Of a stretch of DNA of 50,804 nt, positions 37,262 to 40,202 are shown piece by piece. Source of the stretch: Candidatus Woesebacteria bacterium GW2011_GWB1_33_38 (GTDB taxonomy: Bacteria > Patescibacteriota > Microgenomatia > UBA8517); NCBI GenBank assembly GCA_000990005.1, contig LBPF01000005.1, positions 1 through 50,804 of the forward strand. The letters are read 5' to 3'. The position numbers and the translations under genes are program-made. Positions within the stretch are counted from its first letter, which is position 1; each line of letters begins with the position of its first letter. Under the pieces are notes generated by a model. It saw only the letters and a list, made by a program, of their open reading frames with translations, was not told the origin of the DNA and made no database searches.

Positions 37262-37539
37262 TCTAGTATTGCATCTACAACAAAATAACCATTATGAACT
37301 CTCTTCGCATTTTTCAAGGCATCTTCTTGACTCAAAATCCTGTTAGTATCAATTGCATCTTCTCTTGTTACATTTTTTAAATTTGTAGAGTTTGAAGTTC
37401 CTTTTATGTCTTTCAAATTTAATTCTTGGATTTTAGAAACAAGTTTGACAATCGAGTCAAATTCATCTGAAAATTTTTTTAAATGCTTAGGTAATATCTC
37501 AATCTTGGCTAATTTTGCAATTTTTTTCACATCAGTCAT
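37258..37539 (-). CDS. gatC: Asp/Glu-tRNA amidotransferase subunit C
   Basis: VKKIAKLAKIEI; size and operon position. Confidence 0.85.
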   Translation of the reverse strand: MTDVKKIAKLAKIEILPKHLKKFSDEFDSIVKLVSKIQELNLKDIKGTSNSTNLKNVTREDAIDTNRILSQEDALKNAKRVHNGYFVVDAILE

Positions 37540-38333
37540 TTGAGTAATTTTTTCCTTTCAATTTTAATCTTTTTAATATCTCCCTCAATTGGCAAATCTT
37601 CAGGCATTGTACCACCGATTTCTTGAATTGTTTTTCTCACTTTTTGACCTACAACCATATGTGCAAATGTCGCATGCCCTTCACCTTTTATTTTTTCATT
37701 TCTGATTTTATCATCAGCTTGAGTAATCCTAAATAAATTTGCGGCAAGTTCAGTTGCACCTGCTCTATCCAAAACATCGTCTTTTCCAATTCCTTTTTTC
37801 TTTTGCAATGTTTTTTTGTGCATTCCATACAGGCCTAAATAGCCGGCATCGTGGAATTTTCCAAAATTTTTAACACCAGCACTTTGCGCGGTTGAATTTA
37901 ATTCTTTGTTATGAACTTTGATCTTTCCACGGAGAAACAATCTTTGTTCCGTTTCTTTTAATCCTTGGAATATCTCTTGTTTTCTGGTTTGTATTGCAAA
38001 ATAAGTTTGAGCAGAAGCTATGATTTTTTTAGAAGAATCTCCGTTTTGAGTTATTAAATAACATGCGTATCTAGACAATCGATAATCTTTTACTTCTCGT
38101 TTTGCGCCTGACCCAACAATAACCATATTATTGACATCAATAAAATGGTATTGGATCGTCTGATTGCTCTTTTTACATGCAATTTTTGCTTTTTCAATCA
38201 CTTTTTCAAAATTTTGCCAGTTTGAATAATCTATTAGACTCATCAATTCACGAGCGAGCCAATATTCAACACCATTTTCGTCAATTTTCTTGATTTCTTC
38301 AAAGTGTTTACTTGGAGATTTGAACTGGATCAT
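37536..38333 (-). CDS. dinD: DNA damage-inducible protein D (DinD)
   Basis: FEEIKKIDENGVEYWLARELMSLIDYSNWQNFEKVIEKAK; DYRLSRYACYLITQNGD. Confidence 0.9.
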   Translation of the reverse strand: MIQFKSPSKHFEEIKKIDENGVEYWLARELMSLIDYSNWQNFEKVIEKAKIACKKSNQTIQYHFIDVNNMVIVGSGAKREVKDYRLSRYACYLITQNGDSSKKIIASAQTYFAIQTRKQEIFQGLKETEQRLFLRGKIKVHNKELNSTAQSAGVKNFGKFHDAGYLGLYGMHKKTLQKKKGIGKDDVLDRAGATELAANLFRITQADDKIRNEKIKGEGHATFAHMVVGQKVRKTIQEIGGTMPEDLPIEGDIKKIKIERKKLLK

Positions 38334-38351
38334 TACTTAATAATACTTCAA

Positions 38352-39284
38352 CTAACTCATTTTTTGTAGTATGGCAATTCTTTCTGAAATTGGAGGATGG
38401 GTATTAAAAAGATTTGCAAATCGGCCCACATTACCTTTAATTCCCATTTTAAAGGGGCTAACTATATAAAGATGGGCTGTAGCTTTATTTGCAGCCTCAA
38501 GTGGTTCTTGATCACTTGAGATTTTCTCTAAAGCAGTAATTAATCCTTGCGGTTGTCTTGTAATTGCAACACTACCAGCATCTGCCATAAATTCTCTTCT
38601 CCTTGAAATTGCAAGTTGTATAAGCTGGGAAATAATAGGAGAAAGAATTGCAAACAGTATTCCTAAAACCAAAACTACAGCACCAAGACCACTTTTTTCA
38701 TTACTATTTGAAGATCTTCTCCCATGAAAACTACTACGAAGGAAAAAATCTCCAAGAAGCGCAATTAAGCCAACCATTACGGAAACAATTGACATTAAAC
38801 GGACATCATAATTTTTAATATGAGTTAGTTCATGTGCAATAACACCTTCAAGTTCAGTTCTTGTGAGTTTCTCAATTAAACCAGTTGTAACACAGACAAC
38901 TGCATGATCATAATCTCTGCCTGTAGCAAAGGCATTAGGAGCTGAATCTTCGATTATATATAATTTTGGGAGTGGAAGCCCTGCTCCAATGCAAACATTT
39001 TCAGCAACTGAGGTAAATAAATTGTCTTCCTGCTTAGTTGCAGGTCTTGCACCTGAAATACCAAGAACTATTTTATCTGAATAGTAGTAACTTATAAAAG
39101 TAGATATACCTGAAATTATTAAGGCAATACCCGCAAACCCCAGTCCACTTGCTTCATAACCATTATAAATTCCAATGGCTGAAGTTATAAAATAAGTAGA
39201 AATAGCCACGAACACAAAAAACAAAACAGCAATTATTGCCGACTTTATCTTGTTTGCCGACTGCACCTCATATATATTCTTCAT
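38352..39284 (-). CDS. htpX: M48 family metalloprotease HtpX
   Basis: GVIAHELTHIKNYDVRLM; ISRRREFMADAGSVAITRQP. Confidence 0.93.
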   Translation of the reverse strand: MKNIYEVQSANKIKSAIIAVLFFVFVAISTYFITSAIGIYNGYEASGLGFAGIALIISGISTFISYYYSDKIVLGISGARPATKQEDNLFTSVAENVCIGAGLPLPKLYIIEDSAPNAFATGRDYDHAVVCVTTGLIEKLTRTELEGVIAHELTHIKNYDVRLMSIVSVMVGLIALLGDFFLRSSFHGRRSSNSNEKSGLGAVVLVLGILFAILSPIISQLIQLAISRRREFMADAGSVAITRQPQGLITALEKISSDQEPLEAANKATAHLYIVSPFKMGIKGNVGRFANLFNTHPPISERIAILQKMS

Positions 39285-39285
39285 A

Positions 39286-39510
39286 TTACTTTATGAATTG
39301 CTCAAATTCAGATTTACTCATCCCTGATTGGCTTAAAATACTTTGAAAAGTACCAAAGGCAATTTGTTTGTGTATTGGAATAATTACTGTTTGTAATTTA
39401 CCATTCCAAAATCCACGCATCTTTAAATGGCTTCCTTTTTGTGATATCTGACTAAAATTAGCTCGTCTAAAAGCATTTACTGTTTCTCTTGAAGTATATA
39501 ATTTAGGCAT
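39286..39510 (-). CDS. hicA: HicA family toxin
   Basis: MPKLYTSRETVNAFRRANFSQISQKGSHLKMRG..VIIPIHKQIAFGTFQSILSQSGMSKSEFEQFI. Confidence 0.85.
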   Translation of the reverse strand: MPKLYTSRETVNAFRRANFSQISQKGSHLKMRGFWNGKLQTVIIPIHKQIAFGTFQSILSQSGMSKSEFEQFIK

Positions 39511-39622
39511 ATATAGCAGATATCTCAGGTTCTGTTGGTACAAAATAATTTGGAATTTTTACATCTTCATCTTCAAGCAATAATTCTTGCCACACAATCG
39601 CCTTCAAGTCTGTTTTTGACAT
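39503..39622 (-). pseudogene. hicB: HicB-like antitoxin with internal deletion (39 aa)
   Basis: MSKTDLKAIVWQELLLEDEDVKIPNYFVPTEPEISAIYA*; overlaps the hicA start by ATGCCTAA; has HicB-like start and end but no central fold. Confidence 0.6.
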
Positions 39623-39641
39623 AAAGATATTATATCATTTC

Positions 39642-40202
39642 TTAAAGATTTACTTTTATAGATTTCATTTCATCAGAACTAACTTTCAAGAAATCTCCAC
39701 TTTCTGGTGTTTCTAGACCTTTTAGTTCTTCAAATTTAAATAGATTGGCTACTAAATTTGTAGGAACCGTTGCTCTTTTAACATTGTAGTCAGCAGTTAA
39801 GTCGATCAAAAGTCTTCTTGAATACATAACTTTATCTGATGTATCTCGAAGTTCTCCCATTAAGTTTTCTACAACCGTATTTGCTTTAAGCTCTGGATTG
39901 CTTTCAACTACGATCTTTAAACCAGATAATACTTCTGATATTTGTTTCGTTGCGTCTTGACCTTTAGAAACTAATTTGCGAGCGCTAGATAACATTTCAA
40001 GAATTCCTTTTTCGTGTGTTAAATAACCTTTAACCGAGGCTTCAAGGTTTGGAATTAAATCAGCCTGTCTTTTAAGTTGATTTCCAATTTCTTGAATTGA
40101 TGCTTTAATTCTAGTTTTACTGGATACAAAAAAATTGTATGTACTAACTATCCAAAAAACTACTAATACAAGTAATCCTAATAATATGTAAATAAAATTC
40201 AT
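39642..40202 (-). CDS. lemA: LemA family protein
   Basis: N-terminal TM; IGNQLKRQADLIPNLEASVKGYLTHEKGILEML. Confidence 0.9.
   Translation of the reverse strand: MNFIYILLGLLVLVVFWIVSTYNFFVSSKTRIKASIQEIGNQLKRQADLIPNLEASVKGYLTHEKGILEMLSSARKLVSKGQDATKQISEVLSGLKIVVESNPELKANTVVENLMGELRDTSDKVMYSRRLLIDLTADYNVKRATVPTNLVANLFKFEELKGLETPESGDFLKVSSDEMKSIKVNL

Follow-up and report, generated by a model that had tools for sequence, protein, structure and literature searches.

The window analysed here is a stretch of 50,804 nt that makes up the complete contig C5 (LBPF01000005.1) of Candidatus Woesebacteria bacterium GW2011_GWB1_33_38, whose 845-kb genome is 97% complete. Between lemA and htpX it carries, on the minus strand, a hicA toxin gene preceded by a much shortened hicB:

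38352..39284, minus strand: htpX (M48 peptidase), the downstream neighbour (Pfam Peptidase_M48, E 3.5e-32)
39286..39510, minus strand: hicA, 74 aa, HicA toxin, apparently intact (Pfam HicA_toxin, AF2, Foldseek, family residues)
39427-39435, minus strand: codons of the HicA GSH motif, residues 26-28 (read from the sequence)
39503..39622, minus strand: hicB remnant, a 39-codon ORF whose ends align with full-length HicBs of relatives
39503..39583, minus strand: the C-terminal 26 codons of hicB and stop, kept, LLLEDE...SAIYA (alignment with intact HicBs)
39583..39584, minus strand: hicB deletion junction, 99 nt (33 codons) gone compared with relatives (alignments with relatives and the sister species)
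39584..39622, minus strand: the N-terminal 13 codons of hicB, kept, beta1 strand, ...AIVWQE (alignment with 36 intact HicBs)
39629..39634, minus strand: TATAAT, a -10-like element 6 nt 5' of the hicB ATG (sequence and its spacing in homologous loci)
39642..40202, minus strand: lemA, the upstream neighbour (Pfam LemA, E 3.1e-32)

The 39-aa ORF reads MSKTDLKAIVWQELLLEDEDVKIPNYFVPTEPEISAIYA and overlaps hicA by 8 nt (39503-39510), as a first-pass annotation of this DNA had described. The same annotation saw in it the start and end of a small HicB without the middle, and the alignments bear this out. The first 13 codons correspond to the start of HicBs of 67-83 aa and the last 26 to their end, with best BLOSUM62 scores of 45 and 80 against HicB ends, compared with 35 and 49 for the best of 500 shuffles. 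As both ends outscore every one of the 500 shuffles, the resemblance to HicB is not due to chance. Between WQE and LLLEDE, 33 residues are absent relative to the intact HicBs L009, L010 and L046, which amounts to 99 nt, so that the reading frame is preserved, again as claimed.

The strongest conservation in the family, vASqGkTxxEAxxNLxeA, falls within the absent block, and close to half of the gene has gone with it. Small HicBs fold as beta-beta-beta-alpha-beta, a partial RNase H fold (PMC10865869), and the HicB domain neutralises HicA by masking its catalytic His (PMC11594946). Because an AF2 model of an intact HicB (L018, Desulfuromonadales), predicted from the single sequence, was poor (pLDDT 52, with meaningless Foldseek matches), the missing secondary structure was read by combining the published fold with the alignment; on this reading the block comprises beta2, beta3 and most of alpha1. 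The 39-aa ORF has no match in Pfam or NCBIfam. Class 2 hicBA modules are defined by a small HicB of 60-90 aa (Gerdes 2024, PMC10865869) with a complete partial RNase H fold; the ORF of the window has the Class 2 position, upstream of hicA and overlapping it, but with 39 aa and without beta2, beta3 and most of alpha1 it has neither the size nor the fold.

HicA relatives were gathered from the order, class and phylum, and the adjoining gene was read for each. The partner HicBs of the closer relatives measure 67-83 aa in 36 of 36 measurable cases, which leaves the 39 aa of the window as the sole outlier, and in most relatives hicB overlaps hicA by the same 8 nt. This overlap is shared, for example, by G049 and G016, of the same family, and G081, of the same class. 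The HicAs of G016 and G049 are 57-59% identical to that of the window and their HicBs 56-61% identical over its kept C-terminal part, but all three HicBs, which lie near Pfam DUF7387, retain the 33-residue central block. The intact HicBs L009, L010 and L046 also match DUF7387 (PF24113, of unknown function), with only L046 passing the cut-off; this points to DUF7387 as a family of HicB-type antitoxins.

A search for homologous mini antitoxins, which the first-pass annotation had proposed, came back empty: no second 39-aa HicB was found in 374 genomes of the class or among 50,697 records from phages and 72,556 from plasmids. Lacking independent short homologues, a conserved family of mini-HicBs was rejected. 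A single further short match turned up, in G070, and it belongs to another decayed pair of the same subfamily, in which hicB has an in-frame stop and hicA is down to 22 aa through an internal deletion; decay by internal deletion thus does occur in this family. This third decayed case (L139, G070:C91, reverse complement of about 1365-1645) has TAA as the hicB stop, and its hicA is reduced to MSKLY-QASMTTAEFQSFVR. No intact HicB of this subfamily was found elsewhere in the genome of the window, and a second intact copy supplying the antitoxin was therefore rejected. A search for spread found no HicA relatives on viral contigs.

HicA itself shows none of this damage. It passes the Pfam HicA_toxin (PF07927) cut-off of 27 with 38.7 bits (E 1.1e-9) and keeps the GSH noted in the first reading, with the catalytic His28. 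Compared with 50 relatives, the near-invariant family positions are kept, and the one notable departure, L14F, recurs in three of the 50. The AF2 model (pLDDT 92.5; alpha-beta-beta-beta-alpha plus a C-terminal helix) is a confident dsRBD model that agrees with solved HicA, its best Foldseek matches being 1whz (TM 0.83) and then the HicA of 6g26 (TM 0.66), the structure of a HicAB complex. Between the window and the sister species, dN is 0.023 and dS 0.245 (dN/dS about 0.09). The idea of a decayed HicA was rejected, since near-invariant residues, predicted fold and structure matches are all kept, and HicA looks like an intact protein with putative RNase activity. The first-pass annotation supposed that the toxin of a broken pair has to be inactive or under some other control. 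This is reasonable, but neither the family residues nor the AF2 model or the Foldseek matches revealed an inactivating change.

The position of the TATAAT, 6 nt 5' of the start codon, hints at a leaderless mRNA for hicB; this spacing is the commonest among homologous loci (14 of 37, including that of the window). A generic promoter scan did not list the 39629..39634 site, so any -35 element is weak. Across the homologous hicBA loci of Patescibacteria-like genomes, TATAAT commonly ends at this same distance 5' of the hicB ATG, which suggests that leaderless hicB mRNAs may be found across these genomes. There is no obvious Shine-Dalgarno at the hicA start, and this start overlaps the end of hicB; hicA is thus probably translated by coupling to hicB. 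The frame-keeping deletion of the window would preserve this coupling, which would be lost in the sister species.

Tracing the insertion site in the family demonstrates that hicBA is absent between lemA and htpX in all 28 family relatives whose loci were read around htpX. In these, lemA lies upstream of htpX, separated by no more than about 150 nt in 23 and by other genes in five. The insertion is limited, among the family relatives read, to the genus of the window, which indicates that the module arrived in this genus. Other genes are inserted in the lemA-htpX gaps of L110, L111, L113, L114 and L118, and the gap may therefore be a tolerant insertion site; these inserts include MFS-like transporters and a NUDIX-like gene, named by sequence appearance only. 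Just downstream of htpX, the window also encodes a BRO-N domain protein (37536-38333, Pfam E 5.3e-9), a domain that is frequent in viruses and mobile elements.

The sister species, Candidatus Woesebacteria bacterium GW2011_GWB1_33_22 (G001, LBOW01000004.1), is the sole other species of the genus that was compared. Its locus has the same order, lemA-hicB'-hicA-htpX, and its HicA is 95% identical. Its hicB contains 19 nt beyond that of the window, GAAAATTGGTTTGTGGCCA, on the N-terminal side of the junction. These code for the next HicB residues, ENWFVA, and are therefore ancestral. After them follows the same right-hand sequence as in the window, TTATTGCTTGAAG, but out of frame, so that the frame breaks after 19 HicB codons and the ORF, hicB', stops after 22. 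Thus hicB is broken in the sister too, by a different deletion of about 80 nt that shifts the frame, compared with 99 nt in frame in the window, and the right-hand junction is common to both. Either the window lost 19 nt more from the 80-nt form, restoring the frame, or two independent deletions happen to stop at almost the same right-hand position. The deletion ends may be due to microhomology, which would be GAA/GAA for the window and one A for the sister. Rescue of the sister frame by a +1 frameshift at GCT_TGA was considered and set aside as unsupported speculation.

Divergence between the two species dips over the module. dS is 0.67 in lemA and 0.88 in htpX, 0.25 in hicA and only 0.04 in the hicB remnants, which differ at one of 120 nt, within the N-terminal 13 codons, the C-terminal part being identical in nucleotides. 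To find one synonymous difference or fewer in the remnant is improbable at the flank rates (P 2e-5 or less) and mildly so at the hicA rate (P 0.03). Positions 39501-39650 contain one mismatch in 150 nt, against about 15% in the flanks. The near-identical stretch (39495-39660 in the window, compared with L006/L017) spans the hicB remnant and its promoter. Because the sister has the C-terminal remnant in another frame, selection on the protein does not explain its nucleotide conservation; the simplest cause would be recent recombination, or a transfer that carried the module from one species to the other.

What, then, is this locus? I consider it probable, with good though not complete confidence, that it is a Class 2 hicBA module in decay, in which HicA is left as a structurally intact orphan. 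On this account the genus acquired, between lemA and htpX, a full-length hicB of about 72 aa that reached 8 nt into hicA. The middle of this hicB, which forms the RNase-H-like domain that binds the toxin, was later deleted (99 nt here, 80 nt in the sister). The 39-aa product would be incapable of folding as a HicB and is unlikely to neutralise HicA. The 39-codon frame may still serve as a leader, in that ribosomes starting at its ATG would end inside the hicA start and give coupled translation of hicA. HicA, now without a partner, is presumably tolerated because too little of it is expressed natively; alternatively, the host may be insensitive to it or a different antitoxin may act in trans. 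The choice left by the first-pass annotation between a minimal antitoxin and a broken pair tips to the latter, given the frame-breaking deletion of the sister and the 36 partners of 67-83 aa, and its mini antitoxin finds no support.

Several observations speak against decay. HicA bears no signs of it, with its near-invariant residues and a dN/dS of about 0.09, and since an uncontrolled RNase should be costly, one would not expect the antitoxin to disappear ahead of the toxin. The remnants are almost identical between species although the genes around them are far diverged, and the deletion of the window keeps frame and overlap exactly, which chance would achieve one time in three. A HicA conserved as in a still working pair would also fit an assembly error, or one of several population variants, in which most cells have a full-length hicB and the join was made across a variable middle. 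Both genomes are drafts (14 and about 20 contigs), that of the sister is a MAG, and two different deletions share one right-hand junction. However, the block is absent from two separately assembled species, with different left ends, and flanks and junctions are clean with the neighbouring genes intact; I regard an artefact or variant as unlikely. A variant of the decay account, in which the pair is broken and another HicB of the genome restrains HicA in trans, seems less likely again. The genome does have three other HicA loci (C1:95133, C10:1173 and C6:36950), each adjoined by a HicB-like partner, but these HicBs are of other subfamilies (scoring no more than 30 bits against the profile for the present one), and each has its own HicA alongside; cross-neutralisation would be hypothetical.

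A further reading is a working minimal HicB created by the in-frame deletion, with the beta1 strand and the acidic C-terminal tail (LLLEDED...SAIYA) binding and blocking HicA. Frame, start, promoter and hicA overlap are all kept, only one nucleotide of the ORF differs from the sister while the flanks diverged, and an intact HicA calls for something to restrain it. The sister, however, is unable to make such a protein and conserves the same nucleotides out of frame, no other mini-HicB came from the class genomes, phages or plasmids, and the secondary structure that contacts the toxin is absent. This makes a minimal antitoxin very improbable. That the conserved stretch instead works as RNA or DNA, as an RNA antitoxin or control element, is harder still to credit. 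It would explain the near identity from 39501 to 39650, and the minus-strand RNA fold has a z-score of -1.98, but neither the sister sequence (z -0.55) nor the plus strand (z 0.10) gives a significant fold, and recent recombination between the species accounts for the identity more simply. With no Rfam match and weak fold statistics, a conserved RNA element was rejected.

Small Class 2 hicBA modules have already been described, and hicB genes that are truncated and non-functional have been noted in databases (PMC10865869); the locus adds a new decayed example to them. It resembles those truncated genes in having a damaged hicB beside hicA, but their damage is described as stemming from stop codons whereas that of the window stems from an internal deletion. 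What is unusual in this decayed module is the order of loss. In both related species the antitoxin gene broke down while the toxin gene still looks intact, although decay would be expected to run the other way round. A 39-aa product that neutralised HicA would be the smallest HicB, and beta1 with the C-terminal tail would be enough; the evidence points to decay. The locus thus raises the question of whether chromosomal HicA is toxic at native levels in these tiny-genome bacteria.
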